A stretch of DNA of 64,000 nucleotides from contig JASJCQ010000015.1 in assembly GCA_030065915.1 (NCBI GenBank), forward strand, positions 124,001 through 188,000, read 5' to 3'. The DNA is from Woeseiaceae bacterium (GTDB lineage Bacteria > Pseudomonadota > Gammaproteobacteria > Steroidobacterales > Woeseiaceae). A program made the position numbers and the translations under genes. The notes under the pieces are model-generated. The model was not told the DNA's origin. It made no database searches and saw nothing but the letters and a program-made list of their open reading frames with translations. How positions within the stretch are numbered: position 1 is the first letter of the stretch; each line of letters opens with the position of its first letter. Below, piece by piece: positions 41,869 through 63,621 of this stretch.

Positions 41869-42410
41869 AACTGAAACGCATTCATCACGTCGCGTATCGC
41901 TGCATCGATGCGAAGGAAACCGTCGACTTCTACCAGCGAATCCTGAATATGGAGTTCACGATGGCCTTCGCCGAGGACCGCGTTCCGTCGACGAAGGAGC
42001 CAGATCCGTATATGCACGTGTTCCTGGACGCCGGCATGGGTAACGTTCTGGCGTTTTTCGAGCTGCCGACGAAAGAGTCGATGGGTCGTGACGAGAACAC
42101 GCCGGCCTGGGTCCAGCACATCGCGTTCGAACTCGGCAGTTACCAGGAGTTGCTCGATGCGAAGTCGCGCGTCGAGGCCGAGGGTATCGAGGTCGTCGGC
42201 CCAACCAACCACGGCGTGTTCCAGTCGATCTATTTCTTCGATCCGAACGGGCACCGGCTCGAGCTCGTCTGGAACAACGGCACCGAGGAGCAGCTCGAAG
42301 AGTTGAAACGCGTCGCTCCCGCCATGCTCGAGGAGTGGAGCCGGACCAAGAAGGCGCCACGGCATGCCGCCTGGCTGCATGAGCTGGAATTCAAGGGGGA
42401 CGTCACGTGA
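41865..42410 (+). CDS. VOC-superfamily protein with an intact 2-His-1-Glu metal set
   Basis: A 181-residue single VOC-fold protein with candidate metal ligands His8 (RIHHVAYR), Glu66 (LAFFELP), His85 (WVQHIAFEL) and Glu133 (NGHRLELVW). It could be a dioxygenase, isomerase or lyase. It is translationally coupled to hpd and to the hydrolase gene on both sides (ATGA and GTGA overlaps). In many proteobacteria hmgA, homogentisate 1,2-dioxygenase, occupies this position. No HmgA-like protein is found in the window. A role in homogentisate turnover is therefore plausible but unproven. Confidence 0.8.
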
Positions 42411-43414
42411 GGCTTGCGTCGATGAAGCAGGGTCGCGACGGCCGGCTGGTCGTCGTGTCCGACGACCTCGAGCGTTGTTTCGACGCCGGCGACATTGTGC
42501 CGACGCTGCAGGCGGCGCTGGATCGATGGGACGATGTTGAGGGGCGGCTGCAGGAACTGTCCGAGGAGCTTCGCTTCGCACGGGGTAACGCGTTCGTACA
42601 GGAAGAATGCGCCTCGCCGCTGCCGCGCGCCTACCAGTGGGCGGACGGGTCTGCTTACGTCAACCACGTGGAGCTGGTCAGGAAAGCCCGCGGCGCGGAG
42701 ATGCCGGAGAGCTTCTGGACCGACCCACTGATGTACCAGGGCGGTTCAGACACCTTCCTGGGTCCACGCGACGCCATCGTCATGGCTGACGAATCCTGGG
42801 GCATCGACTTCGAAGCAGAAGTCGCCGTCATCACGGGCGATGTGCCGATGGGCGTGAGCGCCGAAAACGCCCTCGACTGCATCAAGCTCATCATGCTCGT
42901 CAACGACGTGTCGCTCAGGAACCTGATCCCGGGTGAGCTCGCAAAGGGCTTTGGCTTCTTCCAGTCGAAGCCGTCCAGCGCTTTCTCCCCGGTCGCTGTT
43001 ACACCCGACGAACTTGGCGACGCCTGGTCTGACGGCAAACTTCACTTGCCCATGCTGTCATTTCTCAACGACGAGGCCTTCGGCGAGCCGAACGCCGGCG
43101 CCGACATGACGTTCGACTTCGGTCAGCTGATCGCCCACGCGGCCAAGACGCGCCCGTTGAGCGCTGGCACGATCATCGGCTCAGGCACCGTTTCCAACAA
43201 ACTGGACGGCGGTCCGGGCAAGCCGGTTTCGGAAGGTGGAGCCGGCTACTCCTGCATCGCCGAGATACGCATGATCGAGACCATCGAGGATGGCAAGCCC
43301 AAGACCGGATTCATGAAGTTCGGCGACCGGGTTCGAATCGAGATGCTGGATGAGGCGGGCAAGAACGTCTTCGGCAGCATCGACCAGGTCGTGGAACGAT
43401 ACACGGGACCTTAA
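42407..43414 (+). CDS. Fumarylacetoacetate hydrolase family protein
   Basis: A 335-residue protein of the FAH family. In this operon it most likely cleaves fumarylacetoacetate to fumarate and acetoacetate. The N-terminal part ([21 protein letters not shown]) and the catalytic core (MYQGGSDTFLGPRD, ESWGIDFEAEVAVITGD, NDVSLRNLIPGELAKGFGFFQSKPSSAFSP) match the single-chain bacterial type. Acidic residues in the EAEV segment should bind the divalent metal. It starts with GTG at 42407, inside the stop codon of the VOC gene, and is followed 3 bp later by maiA. Confidence 0.92.
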   Translation: MRLASMKQGRDGRLVVVSDDLERCFDAGDIVPTLQAALDRWDDVEGRLQELSEELRFARGNAFVQEECASPLPRAYQWADGSAYVNHVELVRKARGAEMPESFWTDPLMYQGGSDTFLGPRDAIVMADESWGIDFEAEVAVITGDVPMGVSAENALDCIKLIMLVNDVSLRNLIPGELAKGFGFFQSKPSSAFSPVAVTPDELGDAWSDGKLHLPMLSFLNDEAFGEPNAGADMTFDFGQLIAHAAKTRPLSAGTIIGSGTVSNKLDGGPGKPVSEGGAGYSCIAEIRMIETIEDGKPKTGFMKFGDRVRIEMLDEAGKNVFGSIDQVVERYTGP

Positions 43415-43417
43415 GGA

Positions 43418-44062
43418 ATGGCGACACTCTACTCATACTGGCGCTCGACCGCGGCTTACCGTGTTCGGATCGCGTTGAATCTCAAAGGCATCAAGCACGA
43501 TATCGTGTCGGTCGATCTGAAGCCCGGCGTTGAGGACCACCGGGCGGAGGACTACGCGCTAAGAAACCCCCAGAAGCTGGTGCCGTTCTTCGAGGACGAC
43601 CGGGTCACGATAGGCCAGTCGATGGCGATCCTCGAATACCTCGAGGAACGCTACCCGGAGCCGGCCTTGCTGCCGCTCGATCCACAGCTGCGTGGCGAAG
43701 TCCGGTCCGTTTGCCAGCACATCGCCTGCGACGTGCACCCGCTGAACAACATCGCCGTGCTGATCTACCTGAGCGAGGAGCTCGGGGCCAGCGATGCGCA
43801 GCGCGACGCATGGTATACGCACTGGGTGCACCGGGTTTTCGATTCGATCGAGCCGATCACTGAGCGACACGCGGGGCCGTATGTCTTTGGCGAACAACTG
43901 ACGCTGGCCGACGTCCTGCTGGTACCGCAGGTCTTCAACGCAAGACGCTTTAGCGTGCCGCTGGACAACTACCCGGGCATCGTCTGGGTGACCGATTATT
44001 GCAATCGACACGCGGCCTTTGACAAGGCGAGACCGGAAAACCAGCCCGACGCCGAAGAATAA
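43418..44062 (+). CDS. maiA: Maleylacetoacetate isomerase
   Basis: A 214-residue zeta-class glutathione transferase-fold enzyme that isomerises maleylacetoacetate to fumarylacetoacetate using glutathione. The zeta signature appears as YSYWRSTAAYRVRIALNLKG at residues 4-23, with Ser and Arg in the active-site positions. QKLVPFFEDD and QSMAILEYLEE form the glutathione-binding part. The C-terminal helical domain is complete. It starts 3 bp after the hydrolase and is the last gene of the operon. Confidence 0.95.
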   Translation: MATLYSYWRSTAAYRVRIALNLKGIKHDIVSVDLKPGVEDHRAEDYALRNPQKLVPFFEDDRVTIGQSMAILEYLEERYPEPALLPLDPQLRGEVRSVCQHIACDVHPLNNIAVLIYLSEELGASDAQRDAWYTHWVHRVFDSIEPITERHAGPYVFGEQLTLADVLLVPQVFNARRFSVPLDNYPGIVWVTDYCNRHAAFDKARPENQPDAEE

Positions 44063-47420: not shown

Positions 47421-47563
47421 TCGATAATGGCCGCGATTCACGTGGTTTCAGCATCGCATAAAGTCTGAGCGGGCGAAAAGCCTGCTTGCATTGCTTTGGA
47501 TATCGAAGCACCGGGCAGACCGTTCACTCTGCGACGCAGGCAGCTGGGCAGCACGCGCTTTTC

Positions 47564-47572
47564 TGATACTAT
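47564..47572 (+). promoter_or_regulatory. Candidate extended -10 promoter of the yidC-like operon
   Basis: TGATACTAT matches an extended sigma-70 -10 element (TGnTAnnaT). It lies 126 bp upstream of the chosen start of the YidC-like gene, in the 277-bp gap after the DUF6445 gene. No good -35 box is seen at 17 bp. Confidence 0.3.
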
Positions 47573-47697
47573 CCGGCGGCATTCAGGGAGCGCGTGACGA
47601 TGCCAGGCCTCACTCAGGAGTTACAAGCAGAACGCGATTCCCGTTCAGCGGCAGCGGTTCCTCCAGCACGCCGCGCGTCTCCGGCGGCGGTACGCTG

Positions 47698-48945
47698 ATG
47701 CCTTCAATCCGGCTTGGCTGCATAGCCGCACTCCTGCTGCCGATCCTGCTCTGGACACAGCCAGTATTGGCCGAGGACGAGAGCCCGTCCGCGTGCGATC
47801 TGTTCAGCAGTGCATCGCCGTTTGACCTCGAGTCACTTGGCGAGCGTCTTGCCGCCAGCGCAGTTGGATGTGACCAGAACCGCCTGGTGCTCGACTTCGG
47901 TATCGCCGAAGCTGACTCCATGCTCCCGCTTGCCGAGGCGGAGCGATACGTAAAGGACGAGTTCGATTTTTACGGTTTAGCCGGCTTTTACTCGATCACA
48001 CGACTCTCCATCGTCAATGCTGATGGAATAAGCCGTGTTGAGGAACACGTCGAGCTTTCCGGACGGGACTGGCTGTCGGTGATGGGCCGGTTCACGACGA
48101 TCGGATTGAACGCGCCTGGCGCGACGGTCGAGATCGATGAGTCCGGCGCCCGCCTTCGCTGGCAGCGAGGCAGCCCGGTCCGGCTGACGGCGGTTGTCGG
48201 TAGCAAGACGAACCTTGCAGATATCGATCCCGTCTTTGCAAAGACGCGCTACTCACATTTATGGGACTGGCTGGGCGCGCTGTCGCTCGCGGTAGAAGCC
48301 TCGCTTGAGTTTCTGCATTCGTCCCTGGGCATGAGCTGGGGCTGGGTGATCGTGATCTTCTCCGTGCTGGTCAAGATTCTGCTGCTGCCCGTGTCGTTCA
48401 TGACCGTCCGTTTTCAGCGATCTGTTAGCCAGCACCAAACGCAGCTCGAGCCGATCCTCAGGGAGATCAAGGAGAACTACGACGGCGAAGAGGCGCACAA
48501 CCGGATTATGGCGGCGCACAAGGACCTCGGGATATCGCCCTTCTTCACGTTGAAGCCGTTGCTGGGCTCGTTCATCCAGGTACCGATCCTGGTCGCTATC
48601 TTCAATGCACTGGGCGAGATGCCCCAGCTTGCCGGTGATTCCTTCCTCTGGATCGGGGATCTGGCCTATCCGGATACGATCGGCCAGCTGCCCTTCGCTA
48701 TTCCGCTGCTCGGTAACACGGTAAGCCTGCTGCCGTTCGTTATGACCGTCGTCACGGTCGCATCGACGTTGCACTACAGAAACCGTCACGCCCCCGCAAG
48801 CGCCGTTCAAGCCCAGAAAAAGCAGCTCTACCTGATGGCCGCCGCGTTCTTTGTCCTGTTCTATCCGTTTCCCGCGGGGATGTTGTTGTACTGGACCATG
48901 GCCAATATCCTGCAGTGGGCGCAGCAGCAACTCATCAAGGTCTGA
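47698..48945 (+). CDS. YidC/Oxa1-family insertase, short paralogue
   Basis: A 415-residue membrane protein. I start at the ATG at 47698 (MPSIRLGCIAALLLPILL...), which gives a clean signal peptide ending VLAEDE; the longer frame adds 69 low-quality residues. Residues 27-200 form a periplasmic domain much smaller than, and unlike, the P1 domain of gammaproteobacterial YidC (about 540 residues). The conserved insertase core follows: VIFSVLVKILLLPVSFMTVRFQRS, with a Lys where YidC has its groove Arg, then LGISPFFTLKPLLGSFIQVPILVAIFNAL, and C-terminal segments ending YPFPAGMLLYWTMANILQWAQQQ. It is probably a specialised second copy. It is followed 9 bp later by the formyltransferase-like gene and so is the first gene of the operon. 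Confidence 0.85.
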   Translation: MPSIRLGCIAALLLPILLWTQPVLAEDESPSACDLFSSASPFDLESLGERLAASAVGCDQNRLVLDFGIAEADSMLPLAEAERYVKDEFDFYGLAGFYSITRLSIVNADGISRVEEHVELSGRDWLSVMGRFTTIGLNAPGATVEIDESGARLRWQRGSPVRLTAVVGSKTNLADIDPVFAKTRYSHLWDWLGALSLAVEASLEFLHSSLGMSWGWVIVIFSVLVKILLLPVSFMTVRFQRSVSQHQTQLEPILREIKENYDGEEAHNRIMAAHKDLGISPFFTLKPLLGSFIQVPILVAIFNALGEMPQLAGDSFLWIGDLAYPDTIGQLPFAIPLLGNTVSLLPFVMTVVTVASTLHYRNRHAPASAVQAQKKQLYLMAAAFFVLFYPFPAGMLLYWTMANILQWAQQQLIKV

Positions 48946-48954
48946 CACCCAACC

Positions 48955-50319
48955 ATGAGCAATCTTGTTGAACAAGCTATCCTGGAGCAGCGGCAGCAAA
49001 TTTCCCCTGTCGAGAAGCAGTATTCGGATATCGACGTGGTGTTCGAATTGCATCGGCTGCTGCACGCGGAGTCGCTGTCCGAAGAGGACGACGATTTTCT
49101 CGACCAGGCCATGCGGCGAATCGATATCGCGAATCGGCTGTTTCCGCATTACACCAACGACTGGCAGAAGCAGCCCGGTGACCCGATCGGCGATCCATGG
49201 CTGTGCGTGCTTGCCCTTCTCGCCTACCGACGCGTTTGCACACAGAGAGACGCCGGCGCGAATGACGCCAGCCTGCTGAAGCCGCTGAACTTCCTGCTCA
49301 AGTGCATGGACCTGACCGATAGCGAGCACTTTGCCGAGTCGAGCCCGCTTCGGCAGGAAATCCATTCGCATCTGGATACAGCACCTGCGGCAGGCGCGCT
49401 CGAAATTTTCCGGCCTCGAGCGGGCGACCGGGCGGGCGCTGCGAAGCCGCGGGAAATCGACCTGGCCGTCCTGTTTTACGAGGGCCCGATCGCGCGAGCG
49501 TACCTTGAAACGCTGAAGTCCATGGGACTGAAGCCGACACGCATCATCAACCTCATCGCGTCCCGGGACATCGCGACGAAGAAACCGGTTGGACGCTGGA
49601 TGCCGGGTGCCATGCGCCGACCCTATGCTGCGAGTATTCAGCAACGAAAGATCCACTATTGGCCCGATCAAATTCGCCGCAGCAGCCCCGGGCTTTTCTC
49701 TGCGATCAGTGACTGGGTCAGTTCGAATCTCGGGTTTGAGCGGTCGACACTCGAAGGCGCGTTGCAGATGACTCCGTTGACGACCTACAGCGATCGCGTC
49801 GACGAGCGACTGGTCACCGGCCTGAATGATCCCGAACTGTCCGAGTCCCTGGCCGCCATGCCGGACACGGCAATGCTGTTTACGGGCGGCGGCATCGTCC
49901 CGAAGTCCATTCTGGACATTCCGTCGATTCGCCTGTTGCATGTGCACCCGGGCTTCCTGCCGGACATTCGAGGCGCCGACTGTATGCTGTGGTCCGTGCT
50001 TTTGACGGGAGCGGCTTCCGCCAGCAGCTTCTACCTCGCGCCCGGGATCGATACCGGCGACATCGTCATGGCCAAGTGGTTGCCGGCGCCCCGGTTTGCT
50101 GCCGATTGGGCAAACAGTCCCACCAAAACGCTGTATCGTGCCGTCTGCTCCTGGTATGACCCCTGGTTGCGAGCCTCAGTGCTGCGCGAAACGCTCGCTG
50201 CCCACGACCACTACTTTTCGATGCCATCCATCGAGCAAAATGAGACCTCAGGCACACAGTTCCATTTCATGCACGATAAAATGCGGCAATCAGCGCTTAA
50301 ATCACTGTTTCGGCAGTAA
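48955..50319 (+). CDS. Formyltransferase-fold protein with an extra N-terminal domain
   Basis: A 454-residue protein. Residues 1-160 are a helical N-terminal region without recognised homology. Residues 165-420 resemble the formyltransferase fold (PF00551): a central LLHVHPGFLPDIRGADCMLW motif, then SSFYLAPGIDTGDIVMAKWLPAP. The catalytic His331 and Asp366 are in place, but the Asn two residues before the His in formyltransferases (iNxHPSLLP) is His329 here. Activity with formyl-tetrahydrofolate is therefore open. It could modify a sugar amine or another amine during glycan assembly. It sits 9 bp after the YidC-like gene, and the small membrane-protein gene follows after 37 bp. Confidence 0.72.
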   Translation: MSNLVEQAILEQRQQISPVEKQYSDIDVVFELHRLLHAESLSEEDDDFLDQAMRRIDIANRLFPHYTNDWQKQPGDPIGDPWLCVLALLAYRRVCTQRDAGANDASLLKPLNFLLKCMDLTDSEHFAESSPLRQEIHSHLDTAPAAGALEIFRPRAGDRAGAAKPREIDLAVLFYEGPIARAYLETLKSMGLKPTRIINLIASRDIATKKPVGRWMPGAMRRPYAASIQQRKIHYWPDQIRRSSPGLFSAISDWVSSNLGFERSTLEGALQMTPLTTYSDRVDERLVTGLNDPELSESLAAMPDTAMLFTGGGIVPKSILDIPSIRLLHVHPGFLPDIRGADCMLWSVLLTGAASASSFYLAPGIDTGDIVMAKWLPAPRFAADWANSPTKTLYRAVCSWYDPWLRASVLRETLAAHDHYFSMPSIEQNETSGTQFHFMHDKMRQSALKSLFRQ

Positions 50320-50356: not shown

Positions 50357-50590
50357 ATGAACAAGTTCATAGCAACGCTGGGTATCACCCTGTTGACGCT
50401 GTCGCCGCCAGCGATGGCGTATATCGATCCGGGCTCGGGCAGTGCCATCATGTCAGCGATTGTTGGATTCTTCGTGGCCATCGCAATGGTCATCAAGACC
50501 TATTGGTACAAGTTCAAGTCACTGTTTTCATCGTCATCGAAAGCGGACATCGAAGAACAAGCCGAGGACGGGCACGGCGAACAGTCCTGA
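50357..50590 (+). CDS. Small AYIDPGSGS-type membrane protein
   Basis: A 77-residue protein with AAGGAG upstream of the ATG. A signal sequence (MNKFIATLGITLLTLSPPAMA) is followed directly by AYIDPGSGSAIMSAIVGFFV, one membrane segment and a basic then acidic cytoplasmic-looking tail. The YIDPGSGS start of the mature part recurs in small proteins next to envelope-polysaccharide genes of many bacteria; I know of no function. Its place between the YidC-like insertase gene and the kinase gene makes it a natural candidate client of that insertase. Confidence 0.75.
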   Translation: MNKFIATLGITLLTLSPPAMAYIDPGSGSAIMSAIVGFFVAIAMVIKTYWYKFKSLFSSSSKADIEEQAEDGHGEQS

Positions 50591-50624: not shown

Positions 50625-53600
50625 TTGAAGCAGCCCGCCAATGACGTCTTCTTCTTAGGCGCCGGCAAACCTGCACGGGGCCGAACGCCCGCTGCCCTGA
50701 AACGGGTCGCCCTCGATACACGGGCGCTCGACTGGCAGATCCAGAGTATCGACGCGACGGAAGGTACACGGCTCACCTTTATCGGCGGCTACCAGGTCGA
50801 TGAGGTCATTCGCAACTACCCGCAGCTGAACTACGCGGTGGTTGCGGACTGGCAGGGACATTCGGCCCTGCATTCACTGTTCAAGGCGCCACTTCGAAAA
50901 GTCCCGACAACCATCCTGTATGCCGACACGATTTTCAGAAAGAATGTCATCCAAAGTGTCGTCGAGGGCGATGCGGACGTCGTTTACGGTGTCGATTATC
51001 ACTGGCGGACACGTTATCGATCACGCAGCAGTCGCGACATCGACATCGCTGAGGTCCTGAAGCTCGACAACGAAGACGGCGGCCAGACCATGGTCGAGTT
51101 CACCGGGCTGATGCACTTCCAACCGCATGTCGTCGAGTACCTGATCTCGCTCGACAATGCGACGATCGGCAAGTCGTTGCCCGACTTGCTGCAACATCTC
51201 GAGGCCTCCGGCTTCAACACCCAATCCGTTGATGTCAAAGACGGCTGGGCCGAATTCAATTCACCGGACGACATCGCGCACTTTGTCCTCGGCAGCAAGG
51301 CCGAGACGCTGGAGCGCCTGGCGCCAGTCGTCACCCGGAGTCACATCGGCGACCAGGTGACCTTCACCGAATCCGATTGGCGGTCGTCTCGCGACGGACT
51401 CCTTCAGCGAATTCAAAAACGCTTTGCGGGTAAACGACTCATCGTCCGAAGCAGCGCAAAAGCAGAAGACAACTGGGACTCCGCCAACGCGGGCGGCTTC
51501 GATTCGCTGCTCGGCGTCGACAGCTCGCGTCACGAGGATGTGGTCCGGGCCGTGGATGCCGTCATCGAGTCCTATGGCGAAGATCGCGAACCGGAGCACG
51601 ACCAGGTGCTCGTGCAGGAGTGTATCGAGAACGTGTCGTGCTCGGGCGTCGTGTTTACCTGCGGCCTCGAGACAGGATCGCCCTACTATCGCGTCAATTT
51701 CGACGACTCGAGCCAGTCGACGGAATCGGTGACGTCGGGCGACGGCGGAGACCTTCGCACGATCCTGGTCTTCAGGGATGCGCCGCAGGACATCGAACTG
51801 GCAGACCCGGTGATCGCACCGGTGCTCGACGCGATACGCGAACTGGAACAGATCCTGGGCTACGGGAAACTCGACATCGAGTTCGCGATTGACAGTGAGT
51901 CCACGGTGCACATCTTCCAGGTGCGGCCGATATCGGTGGACCATAGCGACTACGATTATTCGAGAACGCAGATCGCAGAGCGCCTGGAGAGTGCGAAGGC
52001 CAGGTTCCTGGCGCTGCAGAAGCCATCGCCGTTCGTGCTTGGAAAAAAGGCCATCTTCGGCAATATGCCGGACTGGAACCCGGCCGAGATTATTGGAACA
52101 CGACCGCGCCCACTGGCATTGAGTCTGTACCGCGAGTTGATTACCGATGAAGTCTGGGCGCGGCAACGCGCCGGGTACGGATATCGCGATGTGCGGCCAC
52201 AACCGCTCATTACCGCTTTTTGCGGACAGCCCTACGTCGACATCAGGGCCAGCATCAACTCCTTCATACCTGCGGCCCTTCCGGACAAGTTGGCCGCTCG
52301 ACTGGTGGATGCCTATCTCGGCATCCTGCTAAACAATCCTGCAAGGCACGACAAGCTGGAGTTCGAGGTCGCGTTTACGAGCTGGACGCCGGACTTCGCA
52401 CAGCTCGCCACCGAACGCCTCGGTCCGGCCGGAATAGTCGCAGCGGAAGTCGCCGAGTTGGAGGAGGCCCTCAAGTCGATCACTTGCGACGCCCTGATCA
52501 GGTTGTCGAGCGACATCGGCTCAGTTGAGGTATTGGCGACCCGCCGTGAGTCGATACTGGCCGCAAAACTCGATCCGGTCGACCGGGCCCTGACCTTGAT
52601 CGAGGATTGCAGGGAGTACGGCACGCTGGCGTTCGCTCACGCGGCGCGAGCCGGCTTTGTTGCGACGAGTTTCCTGAAGAGCTTCAGCCGTCTCGGGATC
52701 CTGACCGACGAACAGGTGAACGACTTCATGCGGAGCATTGGCACGGTGACTCGCGATTTCTCCGAGCTCAAGGCGTCATTGCAACGTGGCGAAACTTCAA
52801 TCGATGAGTTGCAGAAACGCTTTGGGCATCTTCGGCCCGGCACCTACGACGCGACGGCGAAGGCGTATTGGGAAGAGCCGGAGGTCTACCTGACCGACGC
52901 TAGTCATGACGAGTCCGATCACGGCACGACACCATTTACCTGGCCGGAGTCGGCGCTCGAGGCGATCGACGGGATATTGGAGAATCTGGGCTCAGCGCTG
53001 GACGGTAGCCAGTTTATTGCATGGCTCGCGGACGCCATCAAGGCGCGAGAGTCGGTCAAGTTTGCGTTCACGCGAAACCTGAGCCTCGCTCTCGATGCGC
53101 TGATTGACTGGGGCGAGCACGCGGGAGTCGCTCGCGAGCAGCTCGTCTACCTCGAGTACGGCGACTTCAAGAACCATCGCATCGACGCCCTCACGGTCGA
53201 CGACATGAAGAACCTGCTGACGCCCCGTGAGGCGCGCATCGCGACCGGCGAACTCATCGAATTGCCGCAGCTCATTACATCCGAGCAGCAGTTCTACTGT
53301 TTCGAACGATTTGCGTCCCAGCCTAACTTCGTTACGCTTGGCCGCGTCGAGGCCGAGGCGCACGCGTGGCGATCCAACGATGCGGAGGAACTGGATGGCA
53401 AGATCGTGTTGATCCCGCAGGCAGACCCCGGGTACGACTGGCTGTTTGGCCGCGGCATCGTCGGGTTGATCACCTGTTACGGCGGCGCCAACTCGCACAT
53501 GGCGATCCGGGCGGCTGAACTCGGCATGCCGGCGGCGATCGGCGTCGGCGAGCAGCTGTACGAGAAACTGTCGTCTCTGAGGCGGCTCCGTCTCGACTGC

Positions 53601-53627
53601 AAGAATCACCAGGTTGGACCGCCATGA
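50625..53627 (+). CDS. Glutamine-kinase-like PEP-synthase-family enzyme with N-terminal nucleotidyltransferase-like domain
   Basis: A 1000-residue cytoplasmic protein with a TTG start (GGAGAG 5 bp upstream). Residues 1-240 resemble a nucleotidyltransferase: FFLGAGKPARGR is a relic of the LAAGxGxR loop, and ILYADTIF stands at the metal-binding position. Residues 250-440 are an ATP-grasp domain of the PEP-synthase type (Arg275 in IVRSSAKAEDNWDSANAGGF, then IFQVRP with Arg434). A long helical middle region follows. The C-terminus is a phosphohistidine swivel domain with His958 in TCYGGANSHMAIRAAELGMPAAIG. This kinase plus swivel layout is that of Cj1418, the L-glutamine kinase of Campylobacter jejuni phosphoramidate synthesis. 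The next two genes match its partners. Glutamine as substrate is inferred. Confidence 0.82.
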   Translation: MKQPANDVFFLGAGKPARGRTPAALKRVALDTRALDWQIQSIDATEGTRLTFIGGYQVDEVIRNYPQLNYAVVADWQGHSALHSLFKAPLRKVPTTILYADTIFRKNVIQSVVEGDADVVYGVDYHWRTRYRSRSSRDIDIAEVLKLDNEDGGQTMVEFTGLMHFQPHVVEYLISLDNATIGKSLPDLLQHLEASGFNTQSVDVKDGWAEFNSPDDIAHFVLGSKAETLERLAPVVTRSHIGDQVTFTESDWRSSRDGLLQRIQKRFAGKRLIVRSSAKAEDNWDSANAGGFDSLLGVDSSRHEDVVRAVDAVIESYGEDREPEHDQVLVQECIENVSCSGVVFTCGLETGSPYYRVNFDDSSQSTESVTSGDGGDLRTILVFRDAPQDIELADPVIAPVLDAIRELEQILGYGKLDIEFAIDSESTVHIFQVRPISVDHSDYDYSRTQIAERLESAKARFLALQKPSPFVLGKKAIFGNMPDWNPAEIIGTRPRPLALSLYRELITDEVWARQRAGYGYRDVRPQPLITAFCGQPYVDIRASINSFIPAALPDKLAARLVDAYLGILLNNPARHDKLEFEVAFTSWTPDFAQLATERLGPAGIVAAEVAELEEALKSITCDALIRLSSDIGSVEVLATRRESILAAKLDPVDRALTLIEDCREYGTLAFAHAARAGFVATSFLKSFSRLGILTDEQVNDFMRSIGTVTRDFSELKASLQRGETSIDELQKRFGHLRPGTYDATAKAYWEEPEVYLTDASHDESDHGTTPFTWPESALEAIDGILENLGSALDGSQFIAWLADAIKARESVKFAFTRNLSLALDALIDWGEHAGVAREQLVYLEYGDFKNHRIDALTVDDMKNLLTPREARIATGELIELPQLITSEQQFYCFERFASQPNFVTLGRVEAEAHAWRSNDAEELDGKIVLIPQADPGYDWLFGRGIVGLITCYGGANSHMAIRAAELGMPAAIGVGEQLYEKLSSLRRLRLDCKNHQVGPP

Positions 53628-54259
53628 GCGGTCGCCTCGGAATTACACAGCGAGTCGACGTGGTGGACGCCTACGGCGAACGACGCGACTGTCTTGACCA
53701 GCGCTGGGCCGAGCTGGCGGCGTCGATCGGTATGACAATCGCTCCACTATCGAATATCCCGCCAGAACGGGCGGCCGAGTTGCTCGATGGACTGGACTTG
53801 GCGGCGCTGATTCTCAGCGGCGGCAATTCGTTGAGCGCGGCGGACCCGGACGCCCCGGACTGTGCACCGGAAAGAGACGCCTTTGAAGCAGCGGCCATAC
53901 AGTGGGCCCTGCAGCATGACGTCCCCGTGCTGGGCGTCTGTCGCGGCATGCAGATGCTGAACGTATGGTTTGGCGGGTCGCTTGAGAAGATCGACGGCCA
54001 CGCCGGCACTCACCACGCGGTCTCAGCGACCGGGGCGTCGCCGCTTCCGACGAGCCGAACCGTCAACAGCTACCACAATTGGGGAATATCGATCGAAACA
54101 CTGGCAGAAAACCTGGATGTGCTCGCACAACATGAAGACGGCAGCATAGAGGCCTTTCGGCACCGCACTCACCGTGTAGACGGCATCATGTGGCACCCCG
54201 AGCGCGAGACACCGTTCAACGATGAGGATCTTGAGTTTCTGAGGTCGTTTGTCGCATGA
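53624..54259 (+). CDS. Class I glutamine-amidotransferase-type hydrolase, Cj1417-like
   Basis: A 211-residue protein of the peptidase C26 / GATase1 fold. The catalytic triad is complete: Cys106 in VLGVCRGMQMLN, then His191 and Glu193 in IMWHPERE. The start GITQRVDVVDAYGERRDCLDQRW, a motif I associate with the Cj1417 group, distinguishes it from PuuD-type gamma-Glu-GABA hydrolases. Cj1417 removes glutamate from gamma-glutamyl-CDP-amidate to give cytidine diphosphoramidate. It overlaps the kinase gene and the nucleotidyltransferase gene by 4 bp each, so the three are translationally coupled. Confidence 0.83.
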   Translation: MSGRLGITQRVDVVDAYGERRDCLDQRWAELAASIGMTIAPLSNIPPERAAELLDGLDLAALILSGGNSLSAADPDAPDCAPERDAFEAAAIQWALQHDVPVLGVCRGMQMLNVWFGGSLEKIDGHAGTHHAVSATGASPLPTSRTVNSYHNWGISIETLAENLDVLAQHEDGSIEAFRHRTHRVDGIMWHPERETPFNDEDLEFLRSFVA

Positions 54260-55035
54260 CTCGTGCACTCATCCTCGCGGCCGGCGAAGGCCAGAGACTG
54301 CGTCCGCTGACCAACGAGCGACCGAAATGCCTCGTTCCCCTGTTGGGCAAGCCCATGTTGCTGAGGCAATTGGACGTCATGAAACGTTGCGGCGTTTCCG
54401 AGATCGAGGTGATTACCGGGTTCTGCGCCGGGAAGATCGAGGAGCTGGGCCTGTCCTGCAGCCATAATGCGGACTATGCGCAGACCAACATGGTGACGAC
54501 GCTGTTCTCGGCACGCCAGTTCATCGACCGAGAGGGTGACCTGCTCATCGCCTATGGCGACATCGTGTATGAGCAGGAGGTCCTGCAAGCGATACTGGAT
54601 TGCGACGACGATGTCTGCGTCGTTGTCGACCAGAAATGGCGCAAAGCCTGGGAATTGCGTTTCGACGATCCGTTGTCCGATGCAGAGACGATGCTGATTG
54701 ACGCCGACGGGTACATCACGGAGCTGGGCAAGAAACCCGAGAGCTACGCGCAGATCCAGGGGCAATACATTGGCCTCATCAAGATCAGCGGCGACAGGAT
54801 TCGCGCTCTGATCGACTTCTACGACTCGATGGACCGTTCGGCCCTTTTCGACGGCAAGGACTTCGCAAACATGTACATGACCAGCTTCCTCCAGGCGCTC
54901 ATCGATGCCGAATGGAAGGTCCGCGCGGTGCCGATTGATGGCGGATGGCTTGAAGTCGATTCCGTGGACGACCTGCAGATGTACGAACGACTGCATGCCA
55001 GCGGCCAGTTAGCGGACGTCTGCACACTCGACTGA
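54256..55035 (+). CDS. Nucleotidyltransferase, Cj1416-like (CTP:phosphoglutamine type)
   Basis: A 259-residue sugar-nucleotidyltransferase-fold protein. The NTP loop is LAAGEGQRLRPLTNERPKCLVPLLGKP (residues 7-33) with Lys24, and the metal-binding Asp is in LLIAYGDIVYE. The family alone would allow several CTP- or NTP-using activities. Its coupling to the kinase and the Cj1417-like hydrolase points to Cj1416, which condenses phosphoglutamine with CTP to gamma-glutamyl-CDP-amidate. The following gene begins one base after its stop codon. Confidence 0.83.
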   Translation: MTRALILAAGEGQRLRPLTNERPKCLVPLLGKPMLLRQLDVMKRCGVSEIEVITGFCAGKIEELGLSCSHNADYAQTNMVTTLFSARQFIDREGDLLIAYGDIVYEQEVLQAILDCDDDVCVVVDQKWRKAWELRFDDPLSDAETMLIDADGYITELGKKPESYAQIQGQYIGLIKISGDRIRALIDFYDSMDRSALFDGKDFANMYMTSFLQALIDAEWKVRAVPIDGGWLEVDSVDDLQMYERLHASGQLADVCTLD

Positions 55036-55036
55036 G

Positions 55037-56167
55037 ATGAGGCGGACGATTCGCTCAATCCTGGATGCTGCAACCTTCTTCGGCTTGCCGCGTGAACAGC
55101 GGCAGATCGTGTTCTATTCAGAAGGAACGTCTTACTGGGCGCACCTCGAAAAGCTACTTGGCGCCGTGCTCGAGTCCGGCACCGTCAACGTTTGCTACAT
55201 CAGCTCACAGCACGATGACCCCGGCCTGCAGCTGCGCCACGATCGTCTGCGCACGTTTCAGACGGATACCGGCTGGGTCCGCAACTGGTTATTCGAGAAT
55301 ATGCAGTGCGACGTGATGGTCATGACCATGCCGGACCTCGACCAGTTCCAGGTCAAGCGTTCCAGGCACCAGGTTCACTATGTTTACGTACAGCACTCGC
55401 TGGTCAGCCTGCACATGGCCTACCGCGATCACGCGTTCGACGGTTTCGATACGCTGTTTTGCGCCGGGCCACACCACATTAAAGAAGCACGTGCCCTGGA
55501 GGCGCTGGACAAGCTGCCACCGAAAAACCTGGTCGAACACGGCTATGAGCGCCTCGATCGGATTCTGGATGGTGAAGAAGTCACTGCGGCGAAGGACAAA
55601 AACCAGCCGATACACGTCTTGCTTGCGCCATCGTGGGGACCGCAGGGCGTCATCGAGATCGCAGGCAAGCAGCTCGCCGGTATTCTGCTCGACCGAGGTT
55701 TTGGCGTTACGGTCAGACCACACCCGCAAACCTCCCGGCTGTCGGGCGATCGCGTCGACGCGATCTGCAGCGCGTATGGCAGCCACCCGCTGTTCGCACT
55801 GGACACGGATGTTGCCGGTGAGACATCGCTGCGACAGGCCGACCTGATGATCAGCGACTGGTCGGGTGCCGCGCTGGATTTCGCGTTCGGGCTCGAAAAA
55901 CCGGTCCTGTTCATCGACGGCCCGAGGAAGGTCAACAATCCGCGCTACGAAGAGATCGACATTGAACCGTTCGAAGTGTTCGTTCGCGACCAAGTCGGCA
56001 AGCTATTGCCTCGTGACGAACTCGAGCGTGCGCCCGACGCGATTGAGGCACTGGTTCGAGAACACAGCGGATCACATATCGCTGACGTCCGCGACGCGAG
56101 TGTCTTCAATGTTGGCAGCAGCGCTTCTGCAGGCGCCAAAGCTCTCGCGCAATTGCTCAGCAACTAG
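55037..56167 (+). CDS. CDP-glycerol glycerophosphotransferase-like protein
   Basis: A 376-residue protein resembling the PF04464 family, which moves phosphoglycerol or phosphoribitol from CDP-alcohols to teichoic-acid-like chains. The C-terminal half has the typical VRPHPQTS, then RQADLMISDWSGAALDFAFGLEKPVLFIDGP motif. The N-terminal half (IVFYSEGTSYWAHLEKLLGAVL, YVQHSLVSLHMAYRDHAFDGFDTLFCAGPHH) is also of the expected type. No membrane segment is visible. The only CDP-activated compound its operon is predicted to make is cytidine diphosphoramidate, so it may be the phosphoramidate transferase. This is inference. Its 3' end overlaps the convergent sulfatase-like gene by 4 bp. Confidence 0.8.
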   Translation: MRRTIRSILDAATFFGLPREQRQIVFYSEGTSYWAHLEKLLGAVLESGTVNVCYISSQHDDPGLQLRHDRLRTFQTDTGWVRNWLFENMQCDVMVMTMPDLDQFQVKRSRHQVHYVYVQHSLVSLHMAYRDHAFDGFDTLFCAGPHHIKEARALEALDKLPPKNLVEHGYERLDRILDGEEVTAAKDKNQPIHVLLAPSWGPQGVIEIAGKQLAGILLDRGFGVTVRPHPQTSRLSGDRVDAICSAYGSHPLFALDTDVAGETSLRQADLMISDWSGAALDFAFGLEKPVLFIDGPRKVNNPRYEEIDIEPFEVFVRDQVGKLLPRDELERAPDAIEALVREHSGSHIADVRDASVFNVGSSASAGAKALAQLLSN

Positions 56168-58194
56168 TCTACGAGCAGCACAATCTGGTCCAGGTAGACC
56201 TGCTCACGGTATTCGATCGACAACAGGTGTTCACCCTCAGGCAGCGACCACGTCTTGTTGAAGGTCTTCCAGTCCCATTGGCGCGATATCGGCATATCCC
56301 AGATGTCGGAATCGCCGCCGTTCAATCGTATGAAGCTCGAGTTATTGTTGCCGTTCGGCGCAATGATGCGGGCCCTCAACCGAACCGTCGCATCCCTGTC
56401 GAGTTCGAAACGGAATGACTTGTTGCCGTTACTGACGTAAGAACCCTTAACGCCCGGCAGATCAGCGGCGACATCGGCAGACCTGCTCAGTGCGCCCGCC
56501 TCCGCCTCGAAGACCTCGTTGAGGGGAACAAGCGGGGCGACGGCCAACAACTCCGAAATATCCGGGCTCGCATCCGGCAGCGGAATCTCTTCTACGAAAA
56601 TGAGATCCCGTCCTTCCACTTTGTGCTGCCGGAAGTGAGTCTCGTCGATAACGACATTGTAACTTCGCTCGCGACTGGCGAACGCCTGGGCGTCCGGTTT
56701 GCTGAGCGAGAACCCCTCGTGTAACGCCGATTCACGGCCAATGACCTCGTAAATCGTAGGCGCGATATCGATCAGGGAAGCTTCGATTGATGATGTAACC
56801 AGTCCCTCAGTTGACTCTGCTGTCGGGAGCTTCAGCAGCAACAGGCTTCGATTCGAGCGGTACTTGATGGGTGTCAGGTTCGTTCCGTCCACCTTGTAGC
56901 GTTCGCCATGATCGCCGTGTATCAGGATCAGGGAATCGTCATAGCGGCCCAGAGACTTCAGCCGATCGATGAATTCGCCAATCAGTCGAACCGCACACTG
57001 CGCCTGCACAAGCACGTTGCTCTTGCTCGTTTCCTCGCAGCCGGCACCCAGCACGAACGGATCGTGCGGCATGATCAGGTGAATAAACGTGTACCGACCG
57101 CGGGCAGGCAACAGCGCCTCCTGCTCGAGGTATTTCTGAAACCCGAGACTGGATTCAATCGGCGCCGAACTTGCCAGGAAGGTGCGGGCTCCGAGGTTCT
57201 GCAAGTCGTTGGCGCTGATCAGCCACCCGCGCCGGGCAAGCGCCCGGCCGATGACGGCCGGCAGCGTTCGGTACACCCAGAGGGCCATGAATGCGTCGTC
57301 ATTCTGAGGTGGCGTAACGTCGATGTTGTTCGCGTGCTGGACCATCTCGTCAAACATCGTGTAGTCGAACTCATAGAGTTTCCGGCTGAACGCGATGGTC
57401 GAGTAGCCGGCATCCTTCAATTCGTTCAGCAAAGACGCGGAGGCGTTGAACCCGGCCGCCTGGAAGTCGCGCTGGGACATCGAGAAATCGTATTCTGCAC
57501 CGAGGAACACGGACGGTAGCGACCATATCGTGTGCTCGTAGGTCGCTGACGCTTCTTCGTACCACGTAACGCCGTCCATCTTCATCCTGTCGCTGTCTGT
57601 CGCGACCAGGCCGAAGATGTCGCTCTGAAACCCATCCAGGACGATGTGGTAGATGTTTGGCAGGGTCTCATTAGCCGCGAGCAAGCTCAGCTCGGAGTCG
57701 TCGACTGCCTCGACGGGCGCTGCTGACTCGGCGCCGGTGTAGAGTCGCAGACCCTCGGAGGCCGCAAACGCCACGCTCAGTATCGCAAAGAAGCTGACGA
57801 CTTTTTCATGACGGATACGTCGCGCCAAGGCTACCGAAGCCGCAACGTAGATCGCAATCGCCAACAGCACTCCGCCGAACTCGTCGAGAAAGTACAGGGG
57901 TGCCTCGCGCAGCAACGTAAAAACGAGAAAGAACGGCCCCGCCAGGTAGTACAGCCACATTCTCGACGGACCACTGCCGCGCTCAGCTGCTGCACCGCTC
58001 TGCGGCATCAGCAGGAGCCCGATGCCGAGTGCGAACACGAGTCCCGCTGCAAGCGCAAACGGCATCAGCAGGCTGAGCTGGTGGTTGAGTTCCTGCTGGC
58101 TGGACAGGTAGACCGTGATCGCCGGTGACAGGATCAACAGTACCGGTGTACCCACCAGTGAAAGGACGGCAATTGCATTCGAGCGAAGGTTCAT
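56164..58194 (-). CDS. Membrane-bound alkaline-phosphatase-superfamily (sulfatase-like) protein
   Basis: A 676-residue protein with about four N-terminal membrane segments (residues 1-145), then a periplasmic catalytic domain and a C-terminal beta-sandwich (about 560-676) that could bind glycan. Metal-binding motifs are IVLDGFQSD (Asp187), IHLIMPHDPF and LIHGDHGE. The nucleophile position reads YEHTIWSLPS, with Thr222 and without the CxPxR of sulfatases, so it is more like LTA synthase or phosphoethanolamine transferase than a true sulfatase. It may transfer or cleave a phosphoester on an envelope glycan. It converges with the last gene of the phosphoramidate-like operon. Confidence 0.82.
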   Translation of the reverse strand: MNLRSNAIAVLSLVGTPVLLILSPAITVYLSSQQELNHQLSLLMPFALAAGLVFALGIGLLLMPQSGAAAERGSGPSRMWLYYLAGPFFLVFTLLREAPLYFLDEFGGVLLAIAIYVAASVALARRIRHEKVVSFFAILSVAFAASEGLRLYTGAESAAPVEAVDDSELSLLAANETLPNIYHIVLDGFQSDIFGLVATDSDRMKMDGVTWYEEASATYEHTIWSLPSVFLGAEYDFSMSQRDFQAAGFNASASLLNELKDAGYSTIAFSRKLYEFDYTMFDEMVQHANNIDVTPPQNDDAFMALWVYRTLPAVIGRALARRGWLISANDLQNLGARTFLASSAPIESSLGFQKYLEQEALLPARGRYTFIHLIMPHDPFVLGAGCEETSKSNVLVQAQCAVRLIGEFIDRLKSLGRYDDSLILIHGDHGERYKVDGTNLTPIKYRSNRSLLLLKLPTAESTEGLVTSSIEASLIDIAPTIYEVIGRESALHEGFSLSKPDAQAFASRERSYNVVIDETHFRQHKVEGRDLIFVEEIPLPDASPDISELLAVAPLVPLNEVFEAEAGALSRSADVAADLPGVKGSYVSNGNKSFRFELDRDATVRLRARIIAPNGNNNSSFIRLNGGDSDIWDMPISRQWDWKTFNKTWSLPEGEHLLSIEYREQVYLDQIVLLVD

Positions 58195-60315: not shown

Positions 60316-63300
60316 CTAGCGCTGCACGCCTCGACCCGGCGTCCAGGGTACGCCCGCAGCGTCCATGGCCCGTTTCAGCGCCGCATACTCCTCGTCGATA
60401 AGCGTTGAAAGGCCCGCGACAACCTCGGTATAGCGCTCTCGCGCGATCCGGTACGACTTGCGTTGCTCAGGCGTCGGCCCGTATGCCTGCGCCGTCGCGG
60501 AGTACCGCGCATGGAACAGGCGAGCGGTTACCGTCATCTCACCAATGTCGTTGTAGATCGCACGCTGTGGGTTGTTACTCAGGCGATCGCGCGACTCTTT
60601 CAGGCGCTGCTGAATAGCGTTCGCGGTCGCGTACAGCGAGCCATCGTCCACCGAACGCTCCAGCGTGTCCTTGACGGCATCGAGCTCGATAACGATCTCA
60701 TCGATCGAGGCAACCGTGCCACGGGTGGCCCGGACCAGTTCGTCCAGTTCGCTTTCGAAGATGACGCGCTGCTCCTGCGACGTGCCTGGCAGCACCGGCT
60801 CTTCGCGAACAGACACGACCTCGAACTCCTGCGATTGGCCCGTGTCCGACAGGACGCCGTCGACGCGCCTGGACATCGTTACGCTATACGTTCCGGGGGC
60901 AACGAGTACACCGTCGTCATCGGTATACGACGTCGATTCTTCGGCGCTCCACGGCTGCAATGGCGGGTATCGGAGATTCCACGCGACGCGATTGAATCCC
61001 GCTTCTGCCGATGCCTCGATCTGGCGAACGACGTTACCGGCGGAGTTCCGCACGATGAAGACAATTGCAGGCTCGTCTTCACGCTCTTCGTCCAGTATGA
61101 CGTCCCAATCCGGGAAGCGGACGTTCTCGTTATTATTGATAGCGTCCTTTTCCGCCTCCTGCCGTGCGTCTTTCTGGCTCTGGAGGCCATCGGCGACGTA
61201 GTAGGTGAACATGGCGCCGAACGGAGGATTCGGAGCAACGTAGTAGCTGTCGCCCTGGCTTGCCTTGCACGTTGGCTTGCTGCATCCGAGCAGGCGCTTC
61301 TCCACGTACCACGGTGCATCTCGCACCGGGAACAGCGTCTCGCCTTCTGCAAGCGCGGATTCGGTGACGTTCCGCAATGGCGTGTAGTCATCGAGCACGT
61401 AAAAGCTTCGACCGAACGTCGCACCGACCAGGTCGTTCTCGCGCGTCTGTATGACCAGGTCCCTGAACGGAATGTTCGGCACGCCGCCTTTCAGCTTGGT
61501 CCACGCACTGCCGCCATCGACCGTGAAGAACACGCCAAACTCCGTACCCACAAACATCAGGTCGGGATTCACGTGGTCTTGCACGACGCGCCAGAGGATA
61601 TGCCGCTCGGGCAGGTTGCTCGCAATGCTCTTCCAGCTGCGGCCGCGGTTCTCGCTCTTCAGAATGTAGGGAGCAAAATCACCGTTCTTGTGGTCGTCGA
61701 CGACGACATAGACCGTATCCGGATCGTGCAGGTCCGCTTTGATGTCATTGACGAAGAAGCGCTCAGGCACCCCGGGCAACCGGTCCACGCGACGCCAGTT
61801 CTGACCGCCGTCTTCGGTAATCTGGATCAAACCGTCGTCGGTGCCCGCGTAGATCAGCCCCGGGACGATTGGCGACTCCGACACGTTGACGATCGTATTG
61901 AACATCGACATCGCATAGAGGTCCCAGGGCGAGTCGTAGCTCCACGTCCGGCCCATGATGGGCAGACGCGTACGATTCTCGTTGCGTGTCAGGTCGCCAG
62001 AGATCGCAGTCCAGGTATCGCCGTAGTCATCACTTCGCCAAACCCGCTGCGTTGCCGCATAGATGGTCTTCGAATCGTGCGGACTGATCAAAATGGGTGC
62101 ATCCCAGTTGTAGCGCTCGGGTGGGTCGCCCTCCGCGGCCTGCGGACGGATGTAGACATTCTCGCCGGTACGGCGATCGAATCGCGTCAGGTTACCTTGC
62201 TGCCACTGTGCGTAGATGATGTCGGGATCGTTCGGATCGACGGCCGACTGATGGCCGTCACCGCCCAGGGTCACGAACCAGTCGCTGTTCCTTATGCCCG
62301 CAATATCCATCGTGCGTGATGGGCCGCCCTGGCTGTTGTTGTCCTGTGTGCCGCCGTAGACGTTGTAGAACGGCGTGTCATAGTCCACAGCCACCTTGTA
62401 GAACTGGGTGATCGGCATGTTGTGGACGTAGCGCCAGGTTTCGCCGAGGTCGAAACTCTCATAGATACCACCGTCGTTCCCGACCAGCAGGTAATTCTCG
62501 TCGTCCGGGTCGAAGGCCATGGCATGATGGTCTACGTGCTTGGTCTCGTGCCTGAGCCTCTCGAAATCCTCTCCGCCGTTGTTGGTGACGTGCAGGTGCA
62601 CGTCCATTTGGTAGACGCGATCGAACTGGTGCGGCGACGCGAACAGTTCCTGGTAGTAATGCGGGCCCGTGCCGCTCGAGAGATACTCGTTCATCTTCTC
62701 CCAGGTCTCGCCGCCGTCGGCTGAACGCCAGAAACCGCCTTTCCGGTTGTTCTCCTCGATGGTCGCGTAGATGACATCCGGGTCTTGCGGGCTGATGGCG
62801 AGGCCGGTCTTGCCTTTGTTCCCCTCCGGCAGCCCTTCGGTGAGTTCGCGCCAGGTCTCCCCTCCATCTTCGGACTTGTGGATGCCCGTTCCGGGCCCGC
62901 CGTCCAGTAGCACGGCGACACTGCGTAAGCGTTGCCAGGACACCGCATACACGACGTCGGGGTCACGAGGATCCATGTGCACTTCCGACACGCCCGTGTA
63001 CTGATCGTCATCATCTGTGTTGCCCAGCCCGTCGCCGAGTACCTTGCGCCAGTTTTCTCCGCCGTCGGTCGATTTGAACAGGCCGCGATCTCCGCCGCCC
63101 GACCAGAGGGGACCCTGCGCTGCGACGAACATCGTATTCGAATCACGCGGGTCTATAGCGATCATGCCGATGCGCTCCGAGTCTTCGAGACCCATCTTCT
63201 CCCAGTTCTGGCCGCCGTCACGGCTGCGGTACAGACCATCGCCATAGCCGGCGTGGCGGCCGCTGATATTCTCGCCGGTACCTACCCAGATCGTGTCCGG

Positions 63301-63621
63301 ATCGTTAGGGTCAATTGCCAGGCTGCCGATAGAATAGGAGCCTTCATCGTCGAAGATCGTCGACCAGGACGTACCGCGATTCTCCGTCTTCCAGACACCG
63401 CCGCTACCGACAGCGACATACCAGACGCTACGATTCTCGGGGTGAATGGCAATGTCCGAGATTCGCCCGGACATGAACGCCGGACCGATACTCCGGAATT
63501 CGAGGCCCTTGAACGTCGATTCATTGAATCCCGGCTCGACATCGGCATCGTCTTCGTCCTCGGCGAATGCCAGTGGCGCGACGAGTGTGAGCGTGAACAG
63601 AGAAATAAGGTATCGGCGCAT
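60316..63621 (-). CDS. Large secreted BNR/Asp-box beta-propeller protein
   Basis: A 1101-residue protein with a signal peptide (MRRYLISLFTLTLVAPLAFA) and a strong AAGGGGGA site before the ATG. The bulk (about 30-800) is WD40/YVTN/BNR-like repeats with at least seven Asp-boxes (for example SRDGGQNW, STDGGENW, SEDGGETW, SADGGETW, TEDGGQNW, SDDYGDTW and TVDGGSAW), giving one or two sortilin/Vps10-like propellers. The last ~250 residues include a beta domain (LRYPPLQPWSAEESTSYTDDDGVLVAPGTYSVTM) and a helical tail. Binding or hydrolysis at the cell surface is possible. I see no catalytic sialidase residues, so the function is unknown. Confidence 0.88.
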   Translation of the reverse strand: MRRYLISLFTLTLVAPLAFAEDEDDADVEPGFNESTFKGLEFRSIGPAFMSGRISDIAIHPENRSVWYVAVGSGGVWKTENRGTSWSTIFDDEGSYSIGSLAIDPNDPDTIWVGTGENISGRHAGYGDGLYRSRDGGQNWEKMGLEDSERIGMIAIDPRDSNTMFVAAQGPLWSGGGDRGLFKSTDGGENWRKVLGDGLGNTDDDDQYTGVSEVHMDPRDPDVVYAVSWQRLRSVAVLLDGGPGTGIHKSEDGGETWRELTEGLPEGNKGKTGLAISPQDPDVIYATIEENNRKGGFWRSADGGETWEKMNEYLSSGTGPHYYQELFASPHQFDRVYQMDVHLHVTNNGGEDFERLRHETKHVDHHAMAFDPDDENYLLVGNDGGIYESFDLGETWRYVHNMPITQFYKVAVDYDTPFYNVYGGTQDNNSQGGPSRTMDIAGIRNSDWFVTLGGDGHQSAVDPNDPDIIYAQWQQGNLTRFDRRTGENVYIRPQAAEGDPPERYNWDAPILISPHDSKTIYAATQRVWRSDDYGDTWTAISGDLTRNENRTRLPIMGRTWSYDSPWDLYAMSMFNTIVNVSESPIVPGLIYAGTDDGLIQITEDGGQNWRRVDRLPGVPERFFVNDIKADLHDPDTVYVVVDDHKNGDFAPYILKSENRGRSWKSIASNLPERHILWRVVQDHVNPDLMFVGTEFGVFFTVDGGSAWTKLKGGVPNIPFRDLVIQTRENDLVGATFGRSFYVLDDYTPLRNVTESALAEGETLFPVRDAPWYVEKRLLGCSKPTCKASQGDSYYVAPNPPFGAMFTYYVADGLQSQKDARQEAEKDAINNNENVRFPDWDVILDEEREDEPAIVFIVRNSAGNVVRQIEASAEAGFNRVAWNLRYPPLQPWSAEESTSYTDDDGVLVAPGTYSVTMSRRVDGVLSDTGQSQEFEVVSVREEPVLPGTSQEQRVIFESELDELVRATRGTVASIDEIVIELDAVKDTLERSVDDGSLYATANAIQQRLKESRDRLSNNPQRAIYNDIGEMTVTARLFHARYSATAQAYGPTPEQRKSYRIARERYTEVVAGLSTLIDEEYAALKRAMDAAGVPWTPGRGVQR

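Follow-up and report, generated by a model that had tools for sequence, protein, structure and literature searches.

The closest described counterpart of the locus reported here is the capsule pathway of Campylobacter jejuni, encoded by Cj1415–Cj1422. According to excerpts from PMC11800397, Cj1415–1418 lead to cytidine diphosphate (CDP)-phosphoramidate 3'-phosphate, the loss of Cj1421 or Cj1422 abolishes the methyl phosphoramidate, and Cj1419 and Cj1420 are listed there without assigned function. The Campylobacter group takes part in phage recognition and its loss alters host-cell invasion (passages of PMC9561416 and PMC3907429), and a 2022 review speaks in one passage of a 'C. jejuni-specific glutamine kinase' (PMC9561416). 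Phosphoramide groups have also been found in the lipooligosaccharide of Xanthomonas campestris 8004 (PMC8042644) and in a minor variant of the lipopolysaccharide (LPS) of Shewanella sp. MR-4 (PMC3210612), in both cases without the O-methyl group (PMC3907429), and the relevant passages of these three papers name no genes for them. Proteins of the phosphoramidate type have been remarked in archaeal Borg elements (PMC12660748, in part). Apart from this remark we recognised no description of the gene set outside Campylobacter in the open-access literature, as far as its passages go and with subscription papers and preprints left aside, which is weak evidence of novelty. Here we analyse a stretch of 64,000 nucleotides (called the window in the following) from Woeseiaceae bacterium, a gammaproteobacterium (contig JASJCQ010000015.1, positions 124,001 to 188,000). 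An earlier note on this DNA had pointed to three adjacent genes for a kinase, a hydrolase and a cytidylyltransferase and had suggested an undescribed phosphoramidate-type modification. The group itself is known from the Xanthomonas and Shewanella structures cited above, so that this word applies to the genetic system, which appears undescribed. Judged by sequence, the trio is orthologous to the CDP-amidate genes of Campylobacter and likely makes CDP-amidate, and on balance we favour reading the locus as a branch of the phosphoramidate pathway that is built differently.

Results and Discussion

All three open reading frames (ORFs) lie on the forward strand, the kinase at 50625–53627, the hydrolase at 53624–54259 and the cytidylyltransferase at 54256–55035, and both junctions are ATGA stop/start overlaps, in agreement with the positions and the translational coupling given in the earlier note. 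The kinase (1000 aa) has PPDK_N and PEP-utilizers domains. Its residues 215–997 match the L-glutamine kinase family of Cj1418 (NF004508) with 935.5 bits at a cut-off of 501, and this kinase domain (51267–53627) contains the proposed phosphohistidine His958 within the motif GGANSHMAIRA. As a yardstick we used Campylobacteria genomes, 53 of 249 of which match the hydrolase family NF045546 at E 1e-25, and 20 stretches were taken from these 53. The window kinase is 33.5–38.3% identical to Campylobacteria kinases and scores 316–504 bits against the 20 loci, and the best solved structure reaches 24 bits.

One could also suppose that a PEP synthase or rifampin phosphotransferase stands beside a PuuD-type hydrolase and that this pathway is absent. 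Such an explanation has the shared superfamily domains on its side and nothing more, the nearest entries of a PDB sequence search with the kinase being of the PEP synthase type, at the low score just mentioned. The profile comparison proposed in the earlier note could have placed the kinase closer to these enzymes and the hydrolase closer to PuuD, and the scores point the other way: the kinase reaches at most 53 bits on PEP synthase and at most 30 bits on rifampin phosphotransferase models (cut-offs at least 598 among all of these) against 935 on NF004508, and the hydrolase reaches 47.8 bits on PuuD (NF008471, cut-off 266) against 138.4 bits on NF045546. We therefore give this explanation next to no probability.

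The hydrolase, a class I amidotransferase-like protein of 211 aa with a Peptidase_C26/GATase domain, has NF045546, the gamma-glutamyl-CDP-amidate hydrolase family of Cj1417, as its top model. Its 138.4 bits stand well above the next model (57.9) and below the curated cut-off of 250, which 41 of the 53 matching Campylobacteria genomes exceed and 12 miss as well. The next matches to this family in the window genome reach at most 32 bits. Against the 20 Campylobacteria loci the hydrolase scores 81–120 bits (best solved structure 54 bits) with 29–39% identity to Campylobacteria hydrolases, and the triad Cys106, His191 and Glu193 is invariant in all 108 aligned neighbouring hydrolases; both this triad and His958 are as the earlier note had named them. 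The cytidylyltransferase of the Cj1416 family (259 aa, NTP_transf_3 domain) matches all 20 Campylobacteria loci with 184–238 bits, the best PDB chain giving 51 bits, and its residues G10, G12, R14, P23, K24, D102 and D235 are invariant in 105/105 sequences. The order kinase, hydrolase, cytidylyltransferase is common to the window and the Campylobacteria loci, with extra genes intervening in some of the latter. Family scores, intact signatures and gene order thus bear out the identification of the trio as the Cj1418/Cj1417/Cj1416 set.

With the substrates that we infer for the window enzymes, the kinase would form N-phospho-L-glutamine from glutamine and ATP via phospho-His958, the cytidylyltransferase would convert this product with CTP to CDP-glutamine, and the C26 hydrolase would take off glutamate to leave CDP-amidate. 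Orthology to the assayed Campylobacter enzymes lets us propose these three steps with good confidence.

The kinase ORF holds more than the earlier note had recognised. Its first 214 residues (50625–51266) are homologous to the cytidylyltransferase (hhalign to the nucleotidyltransferase family: probability 100, E 5.7e-42) and form a degenerate copy of it, here called pseudo-nucleotidyltransferase domain. To place this fusion we turned to other kinases. When one genome per species was scanned, at least 541 stretches encoding kinase relatives were confirmed, and the 80 best matches to the window kinase among them, in which fused types are over-represented, come from many phyla including two archaea. 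We compared 117 kinase loci, 115 of which were counted after removal of a copy of L057 (L137) and of a locus with a broken kinase frame (L195). GGxNSH is present in 110 of the 117 kinases and GGxASH in five more, the remaining two being cut or broken. A hydrolase homologue accompanies 110/117 and a cytidylyltransferase homologue 113/117 at E 0.001, some of the latter being weak, generic nucleotidyltransferase matches; the grouping of the three genes goes beyond chance. The pseudo-domain is fused to 50 of the 117 kinases, and two more (L072 and L107), truncated at contig ends, were placed with the fused type by their position in the tree. The signature Lys is kept in one of 49 pseudo-domains and replaced by Ser in 23, Ala in 14 and Thr in four; at the second acidic position 37/49 have Asn and 5/49 Asp, and the first Asp is kept in 48/49. 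In the window Ala replaces the Lys, Asn stands at the second acidic position and the first Asp is kept. The sole domain with the signature Lys (LPKCL) belongs to a Helicobacteraceae metagenome-assembled genome (MAG; L133) and may still be active or have decayed less; the idea that every pseudo-domain has lost this residue is therefore wrong. For the others we suggest a non-catalytic role in docking or channelling, in which the domain would probably hold the cytidylyltransferase for the hand-over of the labile phosphoglutamine.

In the unrooted kinase tree (115 rows) the window falls into a supported set of 11 rows, and a separate clade of 54 unfused rows (support 100) holds all 19 Campylobacteria rows. 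The fused kinases do not form a supported single clade: a few unfused rows stand among them, fusion changes seven times on the tree, and L069 is a long-branch row. The order of the trio is identical at fused and unfused loci.

This constancy bears on the possibility that the trio works not with glutamine but with another amide or amine that becomes N-phosphorylated, and gives a different CDP-linked product. The modest identity of the hydrolase to its Campylobacteria counterparts and its score below the curated cut-off would fit such a change, as would the substrate promiscuity that manganese induces in the C. jejuni cytidylyltransferase according to the title of a paper cited in PMC12409886. 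Since the catalytic residues of the hydrolase and the full cytidylyltransferase signature are retained and the gene order does not vary between the two kinase types, we regard a different substrate as unlikely and keep to glutamine.

Neighbouring genes

Neighbour homologues were counted within 8 kb of 52 fused-type, 44 unfused non-Campylobacteria and 19 Campylobacteria kinases. The profiles (hidden Markov models) were built from the same loci, the gene calls were mechanical (longest ORFs, with some genes in high-GC loci lost to shadow ORFs), and the numbers are raw counts over related sequences, whose kinship the contingency p-values leave out of account. An APS-kinase-like 3'-kinase is found at 3/52 fused-type, 30/44 unfused and 15/19 Campylobacteria loci (45/63 non-fused), and the methyltransferase, in the Campylobacteria loci presumably Cj1419/1420, at 0/52, 24/44 and 19/19 (43/63 non-fused). 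DUF2972, which we take to be Cj1421/1422, is confined to 13 of the 19 Campylobacteria loci (0/52 and 0/44 elsewhere), and the sulfotransferase-like family occurs at 1/52, 12/44 and 1/19. The opposite picture is seen for the ORF4 family (24/52, 3/44 and 4/19) and the formyltransferase-like family (23/52, 6/44 and 0/19), both described below. Among the 115 loci no formyltransferase-like gene accompanies any of the 43 methyltransferases, and the six formyltransferase-like loci with unfused kinases all contain the 3'-kinase and all lack the methyltransferase. Tree-aware co-occurrence tests had too few independent pairs and were not significant among the results listed. Taken together with the C. 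jejuni route as given in the excerpts from PMC11800397, the counts mean that at fused-type loci the Campylobacter route mostly lacks its second half.

The Sulfotransferase_3-like genes near unfused kinases (L055, L059, L060, L063, L065, L066, L112, L122, L123, L134, L144 and L149) suggest a sulfotransferase-like transferase for the 3'-phospho donor at these loci. DUF2972 aligns to sulfotransferases with an hhalign probability of only 38 (E 3e-4).

The earlier note had likened the locus to the Campylobacter system, which holds for the core trio and not for the O-methyl part: a search within 8 kb of the window kinase gave neither a 3'-kinase nor a methyltransferase nor a DUF2972 transferase. The missing genes might lie elsewhere in the genome and complete an ordinary O-methyl phosphoramidate pathway. 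An APS kinase (238 bits) is indeed encoded on another contig, and the 3'-kinase does occur at three fused-type loci. APS kinases are general, however, being over cut-off in 11 of 14 control genomes, and not one of the 52 fused-type kinases has the Campylobacteria-type methyltransferase or DUF2972 nearby, the methyltransferase having been sought around the kinases and not genome-wide. An O-methyl pathway completed from elsewhere thus appears very unlikely to us.

A TagF-like candidate transferase

In place of these genes the window has ORF4 (55037–56167, +), which starts one base past the end of the cytidylyltransferase gene and encodes a TagF/TarL-like GT-B enzyme of 376 aa in which no hydrophobic segment was found. 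Its match to Glyphos_transf (PF04464) is 16.1 bits, under the gathering score of 22.1; 20 of 23 aligned relatives match the family at E 0.01 or better (best 2.3e-13). ORF4 has the TagF fold with the catalytic-region His and carries the C-terminal RPH and SDxS motifs as in TagF/TarL. We propose ORF4 as the phosphoramidate transferase. It would use CDP-amidate directly, as TagF does CDP-glycerol, release CMP and leave an unmethylated phosphoramidate on a hydroxyl group, either of a surface glycan or of an acceptor linked to the membrane. Fold, family and synteny tip the balance slightly towards this step.

The fold and the family relatives, which use CDP-glycerol or CDP-ribitol, would equally suit an independent phosphotransferase that makes a teichoic-like polymer. 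Against this speak the position of ORF4 directly behind the cytidylyltransferase gene, its occurrence only alongside the trio in a sample of 398 genomes of the phylum, and the fact that the part of the window that was scanned showed no separate CDP-glycerol synthesis gene. We consider an independent CDP-glycerol or CDP-ribitol enzyme distinctly unlikely and retain ORF4 as candidate phosphoramidate transferase.

At three Campylobacteria loci (L189, L191 and L194) a small gene (157–169 aa) and a distant ORF4-family gene lie between hydrolase and cytidylyltransferase; the small gene of L189 has no Pfam match.

Membrane module and accessory genes

The block extends to both sides of the trio, which is real and had been described in the earlier note as one operon; besides the pseudo-domain, that note had overlooked the likely transferase and a small ORF just upstream of the kinase. 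This ORF (50357–50590, +, AAGGAG upstream of its ATG) encodes a membrane protein of 77 aa with a hydrophobic leader and the motif AYIDPGSGSA. No Pfam or NCBIfam model exceeded its cut-off for the 77-aa-type proteins scanned. Relatives are present at 17/52 fused-type loci, in eight of these 17 no more than 100 bases before the kinase ORF, with one weak relative near an unfused kinase and none near Campylobacteria kinases. The gene accompanies every close ORF4 (15 loci), every strong alkaline phosphatase (AP) superfamily match (11 loci) and the YidC-like gene at 10 of 11 loci, the exception (L072) being cut at the kinase. At one locus an ORF4-like protein (L146:4534-5913, adjoining a YidC-like gene) has a membrane segment with AYLDPGSGSA in its N-terminal part, which is the relative of the 77-aa protein there. 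Because both are one protein at this locus, the 77-aa protein probably anchors ORF4.

The 77-aa protein is found in 21 of the 398 genomes, the window's included. It is not specific for phosphoramidate: ten stretches were read (L233–L242) of 20 other matches, and in eight of them an AP-superfamily enzyme is encoded near the 77-aa protein away from the trio, so that this pair belongs to a wider module. YidC-like, ORF4 and formyltransferase-like genes are absent from all ten trio-free stretches.

Further upstream lies a gene for a YidC-like second membrane insertase (47491–48945, +, likely start ATG 47698; 60KD_IMP 102 bits) with a signal-peptide-like leader; another gene of the genome matches YidC more strongly (214 bits). 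Homologues occur within 9 kb of 11/52 fused-type, 0/44 unfused and 0/19 Campylobacteria kinases. It is followed by a formyltransferase-like gene (48955–50319, +) with a helical N-terminal domain and a Formyl_trans fold (PF00551, 27.9 bits, cut-off 26.1). The catalytic triad of formyltransferases is Asn-His-Asp; it is not found here, as His-x-His replaces NxH in all 25 aligned relatives.

Convergent with ORF4 lies the gene for a membrane AP-superfamily (Sulfatase/LtaS-like) enzyme (56164–58194, −; PF00884, 33.2 bits, cut-off 25). Homologues are strong (>300 bits) at 11/52 fused-type loci, with two more weak ones, and are found at 1/44 unfused (weak) and 0/19 Campylobacteria loci. D187, T222, D428 and H429 are kept in 11/11. 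A formylglycine sulfatase is not favoured, since Thr222 is conserved at the expected nucleophile position; the corresponding Thr of LtaS and EptA is catalytic. All five accessory genes (77-aa, YidC-like, formyltransferase-like, ORF4 and AP-superfamily) come together at six loci, namely in the window, in the same-genus genome G028, in two gammaproteobacterial MAGs, in Pseudomonas marginalis ICMP 3553 and in Glycocaulis profundi ZYF765. Marinobacter daepoensis DSM 16072 has the trio, with no ORF4 in the stretch that was read. Tentatively, the second YidC may insert the 77-aa membrane protein, and the formyltransferase-like and AP-superfamily enzymes might modify the product or have the acceptor as their substrate; these accessory roles, including the anchoring of ORF4, are possible assignments that we hold with low confidence.

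Distribution

The assembly with the trio has 3.96 Mb and a completeness of 99.98%. In a search of 60 genomes, its own included, a full-length kinase match was found in one of 36 congeneric genomes (G028, at 51% identity) and in none of 23 genomes of the same order outside the genus. Of the 398 genomes sampled from the phylum, 15 have a kinase over the family cut-off, that of the window being one of them. With so few carriers the locus is patchy. The kinase is encoded on 14 of 72,556 plasmid records, among them those of Vibrio alfacsensis, Azospirillum, Cupriavidus and Agrobacterium vitis; on the V. alfacsensis plasmid (L219, NZ_AP024168.1) its neighbours are an exosortase A locus and cysDN. 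In viral contigs 13 stretches fit a pattern and none was confirmed.

Elsewhere in the window we noted a tyrosine-degradation-like block (40783–44062) of HPPD, a glyoxalase-family gene, fumarylacetoacetase and a GST-family gene, and a Sortilin-Vps10/BNR repeat protein of 1101 aa (60316–63621, −).

Conclusion

The final product of the locus would most simply be an unmethylated phosphoramidate placed by ORF4, a chemistry that is still predicted from sequence. A wider reading, doubtful as a whole and in its joint details, is that two placement chemistries evolved around one CDP-amidate trio. The sulfate-like route of the Campylobacter type would run through an APS-kinase homologue to a 3'-phosphonucleotide, with methylation and transferases of the sulfotransferase or DUF2972 type, and the teichoic-acid-like route of the window would pass CDP-amidate directly to the TagF-like transferase. 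A membrane platform might then consist of the 77-aa protein, the second YidC and the membrane phosphotransferase, and the formyltransferase-like enzyme could mask the phosphoramidate, as a counterpart of the methylation in the other route. Such a teichoic-like route would extend across several phyla and might account for unmethylated surface phosphoramidate.

With kinase relatives in many phyla, P–N chemistry may be common on microbial surfaces, and our data suggest that phosphoramidate tagging of sugars is commoner in nature than thought. The locus also offers a candidate for the transferase and a possible explanation of the orphan phosphoramide structures in gammaproteobacterial LPS; a Shewanellaceae MAG (L072) carries the trio.

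Compared with known systems, the window shares with the C. jejuni pathway Cj1415–Cj1422 the families and order of kinase, C26 hydrolase and cytidylyltransferase, and differs in the pseudo-nucleotidyltransferase on its kinase and in having a TagF-like transferase and a membrane module instead. Fmt, ArnA and the sugar N-formyltransferases have NxH, in contrast to the HxH of the window family. ORF4 resembles TagF/TarL (PF04464) in its GT-B fold and its RPH and SDxS motifs, the solved members using a CDP-linked phosphoryl donor, and departs from them in its size, in the hydrophobic segment not found, in its score under the Pfam cut-off and in its place beside a CDP-amidate trio. Xanthomonas campestris 8004 and Shewanella sp. 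MR-4, as far as the cited passages go, carry on a gammaproteobacterial LPS the same unmethylated phosphoramidate that we predict for the window, known there from structures.

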